Below are positions 2,619 to 7,167 of a stretch of DNA of 7,167 nt, one piece after another. The DNA is from Candidatus Zhuqueibacterota bacterium. GTDB taxonomy: Bacteria; SM23-31. Every line of letters begins with the position of its first letter. Position 1 is the stretch's first letter. A program made the position numbers and the translations under genes. The notes beneath the pieces were generated by a model. That model saw nothing but the letters and a program-made list of their open reading frames with translations. It was not told the DNA's origin and ran no database searches. The stretch lies in assembly GCA_022562855.1 (NCBI GenBank), contig JADFON010000089.1, positions 1-7,167 on the forward strand. The letters are read 5' to 3'.

Positions 2619-2649
2619 TCGACATTCGTCGGGTGATTTTCTATATGAT
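2619..2649 (+). promoter_or_regulatory. Weak candidate sigma-70-like promoter for the radical SAM gene
   Basis: In the 116-base gap after rnr, TCGACA (2619-2624, 5/6 to TTGACA) is followed 17 bases later by TATATG (2642-2647) or, at 19 bases, TATGAT (2644-2649, 5/6 to TATAAT). This is the widest gap in the window and the place where a new transcription unit could begin. If the organism is Bacteroidetes-like, TAAATTTG at 2602-2609 would instead fit the TAnnTTTG -7 element. The two possibilities exclude one another and neither is strong. Confidence 0.2.
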
Positions 2650-2692
2650 TGAACCTCTTGATAAGAATCGCCCTGGTTACCAAACAGCCTAA
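2645..2692 (+). other. 15-codon mini-ORF upstream of the radical SAM gene
   Basis: ATG at 2645 opens a short frame encoding MIEPLDKNRPGYQTA and stops at TAA 2690-2692, 25 bases before the radical SAM start. A GGGTGA purine run at 2631-2636 lies 8 bases before the ATG, an acceptable Shine-Dalgarno match. It could be a leader peptide, a translated remnant or chance; nothing in the sequence proves translation. It has no Cys and is very short, so a modified-peptide precursor is unlikely though not excluded. Confidence 0.12.
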
Positions 2693-2702
2693 TATTTGTC
2701 GT

Positions 2703-2708
2703 GAAGGA
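2703..2708 (+). promoter_or_regulatory. Ribosome binding site that sets the radical SAM start
   Basis: GAAGGA at 2703-2708 is followed by a 9-base spacer and ATG 2718. It is the clearest Shine-Dalgarno sequence in the accessory block and favours ATG 2718 over the in-frame TTG at 2649, which would add 23 residues ahead of the conserved N-terminal region. Confidence 0.7.
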
Positions 2709-2717
2709 AAAAATTCA

Positions 2718-3746
2718 ATGTACATCTTTGACTGGGCACAAGTAAAAATCATCAACCCGAAACGTGCCTTCAATATAATAAAACTTTACAGTTCCTACTA
2801 TTACTCACGGTTTACAAAACAAGTATGGCTCGCAGGTTATCCCGCGGTTTTGTCGATAGAACCAACCAGTTACTGCAATTTGAAATGTCCCCAATGTCCG
2901 ACCGGTTTGGGTACGTTAAACCGGCAGGACGGGTACATGGATATGAAAACATACCGGTCAATTGTCGATGAATTGGGAGCTTATCTGACTACGATACAGT
3001 TTTTTTTCCAGGGAGAACCCTTTATGCATAAACATCTTCCTGAAATGATAAGCTATGCGAAATCAAAAAATATTTACACGTTGACAAGTACAAACGGTCA
3101 TTTTCTTTCGAGAGATTCGGTTAATGCAATTCTCGATTCGGGTCTCGATACCATCGTGGTTGGACTTGACGGGGTCTCTCCGGAAGTATACAGGTTCTAC
3201 CGCCGAAACGGTAAATTCGACCTGGTTGTGCAGGGGATACAAAGACTGATTGCAGAACGAAACAGACGAGGGCTGAAGCATCCAAAAACGGTATTGCAGT
3301 TCATCGTATTTAAAAGCAATGAAGACCAGGTCGAAGATGTCAAAAAATTCGGCAAAGAACTCAAATTCGATAAAGTGGTGATCAAAACTGCTCAGATTTA
3401 TCCCGAAACAAATATAGACGATTTTCTGCCCGACAATCCCGCGTTGTCGAGATATAAAAAGGAGAACGGTAGTCTTCGCTTGAAAACTTCTATCCCTAAT
3501 CATTGTAAGCGCGTATGGACACAAGCTGTCTTTACCTGGGACGGTGTTCTGGCTTCATGCTGTTTTGATAAAGATGCAAGTCACTCTTTCGGCAAATGGA
3601 ACCCGGAATGCGGGGCAGGCGGAGATCCATTTCTCGAACTTTGGAAAAGTGAAAAAGGAATGCATTTCAGAAAACAAATTCTCAAAAATCGTTCGGACAT
3701 TCCAATGTGTGGAAATTGCACAGAAGGGATAAAAGAGTTCAGGTAG
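2718..3746 (+). CDS. Radical SAM protein with SPASM/twitch-like C-terminal domain
   Basis: 342-residue radical SAM enzyme, predicted cytoplasmic. A short aromatic/basic N-terminal region (1-45) leads into the core strand LSIEPTSYCNLKCPQC, where C53, C57 and C60 form the CxxxCxxC motif that binds the radical SAM [4Fe-4S] cluster. QGEP at 98-101 replaces the usual GGEP SAM-amine-binding motif. LDGVSPEVYRFYRRNGKFD is the typical post-strand segment of the MoaA/PqqE/SkfB group. The C-terminal region carries C263 (CKRVW), C281-C282 (SCCFD), C298 and C331/C334 (CGNC), consistent with at least one auxiliary Fe-S cluster of SPASM or twitch type. Known members mature peptides or modify sugars and cofactors; the substrate here is unknown. 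No clear precursor peptide gene lies next to it. It is separated from the glycosyltransferase by 90 bases and may belong to the same operon, so a role in modifying the glycan or its carrier is inferred. The class assignment is secure; the function is not. Confidence 0.9.
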   Translation: MYIFDWAQVKIINPKRAFNIIKLYSSYYYSRFTKQVWLAGYPAVLSIEPTSYCNLKCPQCPTGLGTLNRQDGYMDMKTYRSIVDELGAYLTTIQFFFQGEPFMHKHLPEMISYAKSKNIYTLTSTNGHFLSRDSVNAILDSGLDTIVVGLDGVSPEVYRFYRRNGKFDLVVQGIQRLIAERNRRGLKHPKTVLQFIVFKSNEDQVEDVKKFGKELKFDKVVIKTAQIYPETNIDDFLPDNPALSRYKKENGSLRLKTSIPNHCKRVWTQAVFTWDGVLASCCFDKDASHSFGKWNPECGAGGDPFLELWKSEKGMHFRKQILKNRSDIPMCGNCTEGIKEFR

Positions 3747-3827: not shown

Positions 3828-3837
3828 TGAAATTTCA
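3828..3837. repeat. 10-bp palindrome overlapping the GT2 start codon
   Basis: TGAAATTTCA is a perfect palindrome whose last base is the A of ATG 3837. No Shine-Dalgarno sequence precedes this ATG; the upstream bases are A/T-rich. An ATG at 3823 is followed at once by a stop and cannot be an alternative start. A palindrome this short and AT-rich can easily arise by chance. Confidence 0.35.
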
Positions 3838-5012
3838 TGAATATATTAGAAATTGTATTGTTTACGATTGGTGGGATTTATGTTCTTTTTAATATAATCC
3901 TTACTGCCGGTGTTGCAGCAGGTTCGAAATCTGTCAAAAATGAGAACGGAAAAAACAAACCGTCCGAACCAAACGTATCGGTTATAGTTCCTGCGCGTAA
4001 CGAAGAGCAAAACATCAAAAGATGTCTCGATTCTCTCGAAGCCCTGGACTATCCTGAAGATAAGCTCGAAATAGTCATTATAGATGATAATTCGGATGAC
4101 AATACAGCGTCCATTGTGCAGAATTATTGCGACCGGATAAAACATTTTTCCTTGTTATCTTTAAATGGTTCCTCTGAAAGCGCAGGCGCCAAAAGTACGG
4201 GCACAGGCACCAATAATACGGGTGCAAGCGGGAAGATCGCTGCGTTGAAATACGGTTATCAGGAAACATCGGGCGATATTATTCTCCAAACGGATGCAGA
4301 TTGTGCTGTTCCCTCCGGATGGATTAAAACGATAACTTCAATCATGGATAAGGAAGTGGGGATTGTCGGCGGTGCAATAATGTTGGATGAATATTCTAAA
4401 AGAAATTCTTGGATTACCAGAATTCTATCATTAGATTGGTTGTACCTTCTCGGAGTGGGCGCAGGAGCAAATGGCGCTGGCTTCCCGTTAAGTTGTTTCG
4501 GCAACAATCTTGCCGTACGAAGAACTGCTTATGAGGACGCCGGCGGTTATGATGCCATACCATTTACCTTTACAGAGGATTTTGCGCTATTTAAATCTAT
4601 AACCCGCGCCGGCTGGAGAAGCAGTTTTTCCCTGAAAAATACCTCGGTCATTCTTAGCAGACCTCCGGATTCATTCCGTGATTTTATAAACCAGCGGCTC
4701 AGGTGGGCTACCGGCGGCATAAAATTAGCCGGTCCCGGAATAATACTTCTTATCGCTGCCTTTTTATTGCATCTACTGGTGATTGCCGCCGTTGCTTTTA
4801 ATATTAGTCTTTCTGTCCTTGTGACGGTAATTATTGTGACCGGTTTTTCCGATTTCATATTTTTAGCAACCTTAACGAACAAAGTCAATAAGTCAAAATT
4901 ACTGCTTTATTTTCCGCTGTTCGAGGTTTACTTTTTTCTTTCAACAACATTATTCGGTTTGGCGCTTCCGTTTGTATCTTCGCTCAAATGGAAAGATAGA
5001 AAATACAGGTAA
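3837..5012 (+). CDS. Membrane-anchored family 2 glycosyltransferase
   Basis: 391-residue GT-A fold glycosyltransferase of the COG1215/PgaC-like type, expected at the inner membrane with its catalytic domain in the cytoplasm. One hydrophobic segment lies at about residues 4-28 and about three at 301-322, 326-348 and 353-380. Catalytic motifs in order: SVIVPARNEE at the start of the GT domain; the nucleotide-binding acidic cluster IIDDNSDD (D83, D84, D87, D88); TDADC with the DxD pair D153/D155; TED at 246-248 (general-base region); and QRLRW at 286-290, the QxxRW acceptor/product-binding motif of membrane GT2 enzymes. The family transfers sugar from a nucleotide-sugar to a growing glycan or lipid; donor and acceptor are unknown. 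A low-complexity insert (110-132) precedes the GKxxAL segment. ATG 3837 is chosen because it begins directly before the first membrane segment, though it lacks a Shine-Dalgarno site. The stop lies 30 bases before the PHP-like gene. A related partial GT2 begins at 6644. Confidence 0.9.
   Translation: MNILEIVLFTIGGIYVLFNIILTAGVAAGSKSVKNENGKNKPSEPNVSVIVPARNEEQNIKRCLDSLEALDYPEDKLEIVIIDDNSDDNTASIVQNYCDRIKHFSLLSLNGSSESAGAKSTGTGTNNTGASGKIAALKYGYQETSGDIILQTDADCAVPSGWIKTITSIMDKEVGIVGGAIMLDEYSKRNSWITRILSLDWLYLLGVGAGANGAGFPLSCFGNNLAVRRTAYEDAGGYDAIPFTFTEDFALFKSITRAGWRSSFSLKNTSVILSRPPDSFRDFINQRLRWATGGIKLAGPGIILLIAAFLLHLLVIAAVAFNISLSVLVTVIIVTGFSDFIFLATLTNKVNKSKLLLYFPLFEVYFFLSTTLFGLALPFVSSLKWKDRKYR
4164..4232 (+). 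repeat. Gly/Thr/Ser/Asn-rich low-complexity insert in the GT2
   Basis: Codons 110-132 encode only small residues plus one Glu and one Lys, with a GTGTNNTG stretch. At DNA level it contains imperfect repeats of ACGGGCA (4197-4203) and ACGGGTGCA (4218-4226). It lies between the strand after the DDNSDD motif and the SGKIAALKYG segment. The related glycosyltransferase at 6644 has only a short IPAGFAPKK loop there, so this looks like a lineage-specific insertion. Confidence 0.7.
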
Positions 5013-5042: not shown

Positions 5043-6608
5043 ATGGTAGAGTCGATAAAGAATTTATATAATCAATCGATAGGAATACGCAGAGGAATCA
5101 CCATCGATGCGCCCTACAGGATTGAACCATGTCAACCCGTTTCCCTTATATTCCGGTTTCAAAATGCTCATATTATACCTTTCTGTATCGATTCGATTTC
5201 TGTAAAGATCGGTCAGCCCGGAAAAATTTTTGGTCCTGTTTCGGTGTTGAAAAAGCCTGTAGAGATCCAGACCTCATTCTGGCAGAGCGTTTTTTATGTT
5301 GATATTCCGGAAAATTTAAACGGTGTTCTCAAAGTTGAAGCGGTGATGAAGATACATGTAAACGGAAAAACAAAAAACATCCGGGTCAGCCCCGCCGCCG
5401 GTGGAAACAAAACCCTTTTTGTTTACCGTTCCCGGGAATCGCTTCCTTCGTTAAGCAATTATTATTTTGGTGATTTTCATTTTTACAACTGTCTGTCACC
5501 GGATGAAAAATTGACCCAGAAATCGCTTTCGGAATCAGCGGGAATCGCCAGATCAATGGGGTTGAAGTTTTTTACTGCAACCGGTTCATCACATAACGGT
5601 TCCAATGGCGAAGATGGAGAAAACAGCAATGGAAGCGGGTCATGGGAAGGATTTAAGAAAGCTTTGGAAACATGGAATCAAAAAAGTGATCTTGTTGTCT
5701 TGCCGGGAGAGAAAATCGTTTGTAAAAACTATCGAAACAGGGACATTGATCTGCTGGTATTGAATTATACAGAATCAATTTCCGGAACGGCAAACGAAAA
5801 TGAGAAGCATGCCCATAAAAAACCGGAAAAAAGATTGAAAGAAGTAGTTGGGAGTGTCGCCGCCAAAGCGCTGACCTTTGCAGTCCGCCCTGTAAAGAAG
5901 CTGACATTTCTCGACAGGTGGCTGCTTCGAAAGGGAATCTGGGGAAAGCCCGATCTAACCTTGACTGGTCTTACAGGTATGCAGGTCAATAACATACCGG
6001 ATTACAATTCACTTAGTCTTGAGATTAGAAAGTGGACAGAAGTACTGCTAAAAGGGAAACGAACAATAATCATTACCGGAAGCGATACCCAAAATAGTCT
6101 CAATGGAGGTAATGGAAACCGGGTTTCTTCAAACTCCGGCGGGTCTCCTCGAGTGTCACAAAAAGCCAGAAACGGAATTTTATGTAAACAACCGGCAACT
6201 GCCGCCAAAATCATAGCAAGTCTTGAGAGAGGAAATTCGGTTATTACGAACGGTCCGCTGATGGATTTTACTGTCAAAAATGAATCCGGCGGAAAATCTC
6301 TTCTTGGAGGTGAAATAGAAGGTTCATCTTTTGTAGTAAAGTACAAAGCCGTTTCAACACCGGAATACGGTCCGCTATTGAATCTCAAGATTTTTGCCGG
6401 TGACATTAAAGCCGGGGTGGAAGAGCTTATTTATACCGCTAATTATGATAACGACCGGTTTTCTGTTGATGGGAAGTTTAATTTTGAACCCCGAAGTAAC
6501 CAAGGATATTTACGGGGAGAATTACGGTCGGGAAAGATTGACGACAAGGAGATCACAAGTTACTGCCTGACAAATCCTGTCTGGATTAGGTCATCGATTT
6601 ATAAATAA
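5043..6608 (+). CDS. CehA/McbA-type PHP-domain protein with degenerate metal site (probable pseudoenzyme)
   Basis: 521 residues, no signal peptide or membrane segment, so probably cytoplasmic. Residues about 15-135 look like a beta-rich N-terminal domain. The PHP-like domain starts at YYFGDFHFYN (H146), where the family has GDLHxHT; the second His is Y148. The TDHN strand is TATGSSHN (178-185). LVVLPGEKI (218-225) matches LPGxEv but has K224 at the expected Glu, and the GHxN element reads RDID. GIWGKPDLT and the GSDTQ motif (346-350, family GSDAH) follow. The C-terminal signature ATAAKIIASLERGNSVITNGP (385-405) and the final LTNPVWI (509-515) are typical of CehA/McbA proteins and support the assignment. 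Intact members are metal-dependent hydrolases. Here at least four ligand positions appear replaced while the frame is undamaged, so a binding or scaffolding role is inferred. Asn/Gly/Ser-rich inserts follow two of the degenerate motifs. It lies between two GT2 genes (30 and 35-base gaps). The family call is by eye. Confidence 0.7.
   Translation: MVESIKNLYNQSIGIRRGITIDAPYRIEPCQPVSLIFRFQNAHIIPFCIDSISVKIGQPGKIFGPVSVLKKPVEIQTSFWQSVFYVDIPENLNGVLKVEAVMKIHVNGKTKNIRVSPAAGGNKTLFVYRSRESLPSLSNYYFGDFHFYNCLSPDEKLTQKSLSESAGIARSMGLKFFTATGSSHNGSNGEDGENSNGSGSWEGFKKALETWNQKSDLVVLPGEKIVCKNYRNRDIDLLVLNYTESISGTANENEKHAHKKPEKRLKEVVGSVAAKALTFAVRPVKKLTFLDRWLLRKGIWGKPDLTLTGLTGMQVNNIPDYNSLSLEIRKWTEVLLKGKRTIIITGSDTQNSLNGGNGNRVSSNSGGSPRVSQKARNGILCKQPATAAKIIASLERGNSVITNGPLMDFTVKNESGGKSLLGGEIEGSSFVVKYKAVSTPEYGPLLNLKIFAGDIKAGVEELIYTANYDNDRFSVDGKFNFEPRSNQGYLRGELRSGKIDDKEITSYCLTNPVWIRSSIYK
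5595..5642 (+). repeat. Asn/Gly/Ser-rich insert 1 in the PHP-like protein
   Basis: Codons 185-200 encode a run made almost entirely of Asn, Gly, Ser, Glu and Asp, directly after TGSSH, the position of the TDH metal motif in active relatives. The adjoining residues (SWEGFKKALETW) resume a normal helix, so the insert is probably a flexible surface loop. Confidence 0.65.
6093..6146 (+). repeat. Asn/Gly/Ser-rich insert 2 in the PHP-like protein
   Basis: Codons 351-368 (beginning NSLNGGNGN and ending SNSGGS) follow immediately after GSDTQ, the counterpart of the GSDAH metal-binding motif. Composition resembles insert 1 and the insert in the upstream GT2. Confidence 0.65.
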
Positions 6609-6619
6609 TACCTCGCAAC

Positions 6620-6635
6620 AACCACGTGAGTGGTT
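6620..6635 (+). promoter_or_regulatory. GNRA-capped hairpin just before the second GT2
   Basis: AACCAC-GTGA-GTGGTT forms a perfect 6-bp stem closed by GUGA, a GNRA-type tetraloop. It lies in the 35-base gap, 8 bases before ATG 6644. The best Shine-Dalgarno-like bases (GTGAG) fall in the loop and first stem base, so folding could affect initiation. No T run follows, so it is not a standard terminator. An RNA processing or stability element is another possibility. Confidence 0.4.
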
Positions 6636-6643
6636 ACTATGTG

Positions 6644-7167
6644 ATGCACACTTTTCTCTTCGCAGCAGGTCTTTTCCTCACTTTTTTATACGTCATATTT
6701 GTTTTGTCACTGTATGTCGGACTGGGAAGGCTCAAACCCGGTACAAATTCTACCAGACATAAGGTGTCTGTTGTAGTTGCCGCACGTAACGAAGAAACTC
6801 AAATCCGGGCTTGCATAGACGCGCTTCTCCTGCAGGACTATCCACAAGACCTGCTTGAAATAATCGTCGTAAATGACCGTTCTGAAGATGAGACGCCTTC
6901 AATTCTCGAAGAATACTCAGCAAATAACCCTTCCATCAAAATAATCAACATTAATGTAATTCCCGCGGGTTTTGCCCCAAAAAAGTATGCCATTACAAAA
7001 GGTGTCGAAGCGGCGGAAGGTGAAATTATCTGTTCGACCGATGCTGACTGTGTCCCGCCGCCGACATGGGTATCGGAAATGGTCTCATATTTCGATGACA
7101 AAACCGGATTTGTCGCCGGTTTTTCCCCTCTCTACGCCTCATCTAACGGAAAATTTAAAACCAATAC
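6644..7167 (+). CDS. Family 2 glycosyltransferase, 3'-truncated
   Basis: The first 174 codons of a second GT2 run off the right edge without a stop. The N-terminal hydrophobic segment (about residues 3-28, FLFAAGLFLTFLYVIFVLSLYVG) predicts an inner-membrane anchor. The GT-A domain begins at VSVVVAARNEE, followed by the nucleotide-binding motif VVNDRSEDET (D78, E81, D82) and the DxD motif in STDADC (D133/D135). Sequence and layout are close to the gene at 3837 (ARNEE, DYPxDxLEI, TDADC), so the two are likely paralogues acting on related substrates; this one lacks the low-complexity loop. TED, QxxRW and C-terminal membrane segments would lie beyond the window. ATG 6644 begins directly before the membrane segment. 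GTG 6641 and GTG 6626 are in-frame alternatives that add only 1 or 6 residues, and none of the three has a good Shine-Dalgarno site. It probably shares an operon with the preceding PHP-like gene. Confidence 0.85.
   Translation, partial: MHTFLFAAGLFLTFLYVIFVLSLYVGLGRLKPGTNSTRHKVSVVVAARNEETQIRACIDALLLQDYPQDLLEIIVVNDRSEDETPSILEEYSANNPSIKIININVIPAGFAPKKYAITKGVEAAEGEIICSTDADCVPPPTWVSEMVSYFDDKTGFVAGFSPLYASSNGKFKTN

Follow-up and report, generated by a model that had tools for sequence, protein, structure and literature searches.

What becomes of an enzyme of the PHP fold when the residues of its metal site are replaced and its gene stands between two glycosyltransferase genes is the question raised by the window, a stretch of 7,167 nucleotides from a Candidatus Zhuqueibacterota MAG (79.6% complete, 491 contigs). 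The open reading frame at 5043-6608 (+) encodes a degenerate PHP-fold (CehA/McbA-like) protein of 521 amino acids (also labelled Q), described here from its reading frame, homologues, NCBIfam profile NF038032 and an AF2 model. The first-pass annotation had read the gene as an uninterrupted frame of 521 codons, and the frame indeed starts with ATG and contains no internal stop.

The same annotation had proposed a PHP/CehA-McbA-like identity, on which profile, orthology and fold agree. The sole family with a significant E-value for the window protein is NF038032 (CehA_McbA; E=1.4e-13), with a match confined to residues 313-515 and a score of 50.9 bits, below the cut-off of 80 bits that defines membership; among intact relatives, L027 passes this cut-off with 86.9 bits and L045 lies just under it with 77.3 bits. 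Pfam gave nothing above cut-off for the protein, the profile searches assigned no unrelated fold, and a phmmer search against the PDB returned chance matches only, the family profile giving weak matches to PolX, TM0559 and YcdX. No relative was found by the single-sequence scan of the genome contig collection or in the viral contigs. Full-length matches, with E-values down to 1e-120, together with a common gene neighbourhood, place it in a PHP family encoded in GT2 clusters of KSB1, Ignavibacteria and related phyla. Its counterparts within the phylum comprise (i) L002, 41% identical, and (ii) L003, 33% identical, both from other genera of the same GTDB family, referred to as f1 (genomes G000, G001 and G002, three genera), and (iii) L027 (= L004), an intact version from another family of the same class; the phylum of the window is represented by six genomes in the searched collection.

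The AF2 model of the window protein, built from 66 sequences, is confident (pLDDT 85.4, pTM 0.88), and its best PDB matches by VIA-align are all PHP proteins, 3e38 (Z 14.2), 7rty (Z 13.9) and 2anu (Z 13.5), spanning approximately residues 138-405, the region of the PHP barrel. The same three proteins are matched at Z 15.4-16.9 by the model of the intact L027, obtained from the same sequences with a pLDDT of 91.1. The protein comprises (i) an N-terminal β-sandwich, delineated by the AF2 strands and VIA-align (residues 15-138; 5085..5456, +), with an arrangement like that of arrestin, Spo0M and TRAP (Spo0M 5cl2, Z 9.2, and TRAP, Z 9.0, over approximately residues 13-135); (ii) the PHP core, defined by VIA-align and the ligand columns, in which the metal site is lost (residues 139-396; 5457..6230, +); and (iii) a C-terminal part (residues 397-521; 6231..6605, +). 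The top rows of Foldseek, mostly β-sandwich glycosidases and complement proteins, were discarded, being long chained alignments with a TMq of 0.12-0.22 in nearly all cases. Two catalytic loops differ in confidence between the window protein and L027: the loop following DAH (window residues 351-369) has a pLDDT of 42-45 versus 85-92, and the loop following HxH 53 versus 80-88, part of which may be technical because the window sequence is an outlier of the AF2 alignment.

The gene order in the window is PrmC-like methyltransferase, RNase R, radical SAM/SPASM protein, GT2, PHP-like protein and GT2. The radical SAM/SPASM protein (2719..3746, +; PF04055, E=2.6e-18; PF13186, E=7.9e-7) contains CNLKCPQC; the TTG start listed for its reading frame (window 2649-2719) is probably wrong, homology to L017 indicating the ATG at 2719. 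The upstream glycosyltransferase, GT2a (3837..5012, +; PF00535, E=2.5e-25), has intact TDADC, TEDF and QRLRW motifs, and the downstream one, GT2b (6626..7165, +; PF00535, E=1.4e-25), is truncated where the contig ends; the first of its listed start codons lies 17 bases past the stop of the PHP-like gene. The catalytic motifs are thus kept in GT2a, GT2b and the radical SAM protein, with GT2b judged mainly on its full-length orthologues in L017 and L018, which display TDADC, GDDD and QRxRH. No RNA families were found in the window, and the repeats in the region look like chance. The order radical SAM-GT2-PHP-GT2 is preserved in all three f1 genera, G002 having in addition a flippase-like gene and a second radical SAM gene.

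Outside the phylum of the window the family is broad: relatives of the intact protein are encoded in 399 stretches of genome contigs, of which the 80 best come from KSB1, Ignavibacteria, Calditrichota, Zixibacteria, Latescibacterota, Neomarinimicrobiota, Poribacteria and others. In four other phyla, the PHP gene occurs in 60/82, 78/245, 9/9 and 11/13 genomes, nearly always as a single copy. Many loci contain parts of a series comprising radical SAM, flippase-like (LPG_synthase_TM), polysaccharide deacetylase, GT2, GT2 or second radical SAM, and PHP genes, and the window shares this neighbourhood with loci of KSB1, Calditrichota and Ignavibacteria; the start of the PHP gene may overlap or abut the preceding gene (L045, L040). 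DUF3108 proteins are encoded in the same cluster at one Gemmatimonadota and one KSB1 locus (L042:5102-5893 and L040:2728-3642).

Against this background the metal site stands out. Nine motif positions, H146, H148, D181, H182, E224, H236, H282, D348 and H350 in window numbering, are each identical in 80/80 of the named intact relatives, that is, the best 80 of the 399 stretches. The corresponding residues are H, Y, G, S, K, D, R, D and Q in the window protein; H, R, D, Q, E, N, H, N and H in L002; and Y, R, D, N, L, N, E, N and Y in L003. With the full PHP ligand set taken as HxH, a third acidic residue or His, H, E, H, H and DxH, six of the eight aligned ligands are changed in the window protein, and the ligands left, of the eight clearly assigned, number two in the window protein, four in L002 and none in L003. 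D181, a residue of the TDH motif, is itself probably not a ligand. The PHP consensus has a third ligand (PMC3666897), which in window numbering would be D154 or E157; E157 is present in 80/80 of the same best 80 of 399 and is lost in all three f1 proteins.

Along the gene, all on the plus strand, the HxH motif now reads H146-F147-Y148 (5478..5486; R148 in L002, Y146 and R148 in L003), and the TDHSY motif, with D181, H182, S183 and Y184 in 80/80 intact relatives, reads T180-G181-S182-S183-H184 (5580..5594). The ligand Glu of GEE is K224 (5712..5714), the ligand His of (N)VH is D236 (5748..5750; N in both L002 and L003), the ligand His of AHP is R282 (5886..5888; E in L003), and DAH has become D348-T349-Q350 (6084..6092). 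The alignment with the 80 relatives bears out the substitutions read from the window alone, with H146 and D348 kept and H148→Y, H182→S, E224→K, H236→D and H350→Q changed. The replacement of TDH by TGSSH, also put forward there, is a real change, though with another register: the D-H pair of TDH corresponds to G181-S182, and H184 takes the place of the invariant Tyr of TDHSY, not of the TDH His. The earlier list was moreover incomplete, having overlooked H282→R at the AHP His, the VEFGAP loop that includes E157, the GxGDxAE loop and the DAHGNFNRFRQ tail, each of them missing or changed in the window protein, as well as the N-terminal YAEIHY motif, which the window protein and L002 lack and for which L003 has a different sequence. 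In intact relatives, YAEIHY(R) is near-invariant (L027:346-450 and others) and precedes the β-sandwich.

Because the pattern used to gather the named relatives was biased towards D348 and H350, a second survey was performed across four phyla with A3, a profile of the dead clade that does not depend on any such motif. All 140 of 140 loci keep the nine positions, DAH included, eight of them with D181E (L182, L192, L215, L222, L224, L227, L230 and L231, all from one phylum, with the remaining ligands intact), so that frequent ligand loss outside f1 is rejected (0/140 loci). The catalytic residues are therefore lost in 3/3 f1 proteins and kept in the 80 relatives and the 140 surveyed loci elsewhere, two sets that probably overlap in some genomes. 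One internal stop occurs in each of several relatives outside the phylum, L009 (G058) and rows G133, G203, G205, G395, G396 and G409; those that were aligned, all except G133, keep the ligands, and the stops may thus be sequencing errors or young pseudogenes.

The earlier proposal to look for the same substitutions in homologues with the same GT2 context is answered by the two further f1 genera, which likewise lack the metal site. The window protein, L002 and L003 form one clade (SH-aLRT 99), with long branches leading to the window protein and L003. H148, H182 and H236 are absent from all three, the other losses differing among genera, and these common losses point to one ancestral inactivation: the metal site would have been lost once, in the common ancestor of f1, the residual site then drifting differently in each genus. 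L002, which keeps H146, D181, E224, H282 and H350, may retain a reduced metal site. The comparison of aligned proteins strongly supports the loss of the metal site in the f1 PHP proteins, the dead clade consisting of three sequences, all from incomplete MAGs. No intact PHP copy was found elsewhere in the three f1 genomes, which are 63-80% complete, and a second intact copy was set aside as a candidate explanation, weak matches to other PHP proteins being all that appeared. The idea that catalytic loss goes together with the absence of the second radical SAM gene was rejected as well, since this gene is still present in G002 next to a dead PHP gene.

The pattern of divergence indicates where constraint has changed. 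All three f1 genera have 0 stops, whereas neutral saturation would be expected to yield ~31 over the 521 codons, and third codon positions are near saturation between the f1 genes, positions 1 and 2 diverging less in every domain, the core included. When the identity of the core (bin 139-360) is subtracted from that of the C-terminal part (bin 361-518), the 3001 intact pairs give a mean of -18 points and a maximum of +1, versus +13, +14 and +16 points for the three dead pairs. At similar radical SAM divergence, for which two intact pairs were available, the identity of the core is 55-62% in intact and 28-33% in dead pairs, and that of the C-terminal part 31-35% in intact and 44-46% in dead pairs; by these identity tests the C-terminal part is the most conserved part of the protein in the dead clade. 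Within f1, the PHP proteins are 33-41% identical versus 57-71% for the radical SAM proteins, a faster-than-neighbours pace missing in intact lineages that also fits relaxed constraint. Because core identity falls as C-terminal identity rises, the relaxation seems to concern the core and not the protein as a whole. The open frames, the C-terminal conservation and the codon-position pattern, compared among three genera with no close strains, support the view that selection may still be keeping the protein.

The favoured explanation, to which we assign a probability of about 0.6, is that the f1 proteins form a pseudoenzyme lineage, likely a non-catalytic partner of the flanking GT2s. The ancestor would have been a PHP metalloenzyme, nearly always single-copy, in a radical SAM-flippase-like-GT2-GT2-PHP cluster resembling those of envelope glycolipid or glycan synthesis. 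Catalysis is presumably absent from the f1 proteins, judging from the residues lost, and the PHP body, the N-terminal β-sandwich and especially the C-terminal part would still be maintained. On the most economical reading, the protein persists in the GT2 operon for a role in folding, binding or scaffolding; most likely it now either acts as a scaffold for the two flanking GT2s or binds their substrate or product, an anionic lipid-linked compound. Positively charged side chains (K224 and R282 in the window protein, R148 in both L002 and L003) may partly substitute for the charge of the metals. A more specific version, in which the protein is a dedicated non-catalytic GT2 subunit whose functional centre now lies in the C-terminal β region instead of the PHP barrel, with the conversion at different stages in the three genera, is advanced tentatively and is less probable than the general reading.

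Three other explanations deserve consideration. The gene may be a vestige under relaxed selection, the step having become dispensable in f1 and the gene drifting to loss with no new function. Different residues are lost in each genus, the PHP gene evolves much faster than its neighbours, and the cluster is shrinking, the flippase-like gene not being found in G000 and G001 and the second radical SAM gene giving weak matches only; moreover, family f2 keeps the upstream part of the cluster without the PHP gene. In this f2 genome of the same class (G003, locus L257), the genes for RNase R, the radical SAM protein and the flippase-like protein stand next to one another with no PHP or GT2 gene after them, and as the genome, 83% complete, has only weak other PHP matches, the PHP gene may have been lost there. 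Drift to loss is nevertheless unlikely, given frames that stay open in three genera at near-saturated synonymous distance, a C-terminal part more conserved than in intact relatives, a confident predicted fold, and a place in the operon that is still flanked by two GT2 genes whose motifs are intact.

Alternatively, the f1 proteins may be altered but active enzymes, with a reduced mononuclear or rebuilt site (e.g., H146, D236, D348 and H184) and changed chemistry, as suggested by H146 and D348 in the window protein, the acidic D236 in place of His, and the five of nine motif residues kept by L002. This is distinctly improbable, since the three proteins have no ligand set in common and L003 keeps 0/8, the invariant VEFGAP, GxGD and DAHGN loops are gone, K224 and R282 place positive charge at metal positions, and the catalytic loops are modelled with low confidence. 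Least credible of all, and barely worth entertaining, is an artefact of assembly, binning or sequencing, or a chance resemblance to PHP proteins: the fragmented state of the source MAG speaks in its favour, but the same loss recurs in three independent genomes with matching synteny, and profile, orthology and fold all indicate PHP.

The pseudoenzyme reading has a precedent in the PHP domain of DNA polymerase III, of which the E. coli variant has lost metal ligands and is retained as a structural element, Arg being the commonest ligand replacement in variant PHP domains (PMC3666897). The Pol III α PHP domain and the f1 proteins have in common (i) a PHP fold with ligands lost and positive side chains as common replacements, (ii) retention of the fold in a structural role, putative for f1, and (iii) a loss limited to some lineages of a metal-binding family; anion binding by the Lys/Arg replacements would fit this pattern. 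In contrast to the Pol III α domain, which is fused to the polymerase, the window protein is separate, carries two β domains, lies in a GT2/radical-SAM cluster and belongs to a CehA/McbA-like branch. Here a stand-alone PHP protein appears to have taken a Pol III-like route of metal loss independently. From the CehA/McbA metallohydrolases of NF038032 the window protein differs in scoring below the cut-off and lacking the metal ligands. The solved PHP proteins nearest to its model are 3e38 (BVU_3505), 2anu (TM0559) and 7rty (PsfC), of which 2anu displays HxH, TDH, GxE and AHP in the profile alignment, sets that the window protein lacks.

The finding draws attention to a PHP gene that is widespread in envelope-type clusters across many uncultured phyla; no description of it was found in the literature searched, which covered CehA/McbA and PHP proteins, pseudoenzymes of the PHP fold, and gene clusters that combine PHP with glycosyltransferases, radical SAM and flippase. 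The f1 branch should not be annotated as a metallohydrolase. Because the three genera keep different degrees of loss, the course of the change and the shift in constraint can be read directly. Within a cluster whose ancestral enzyme is elsewhere invariant, the f1 sequences make this lineage a good candidate for the conversion of an enzyme into a non-catalytic component.
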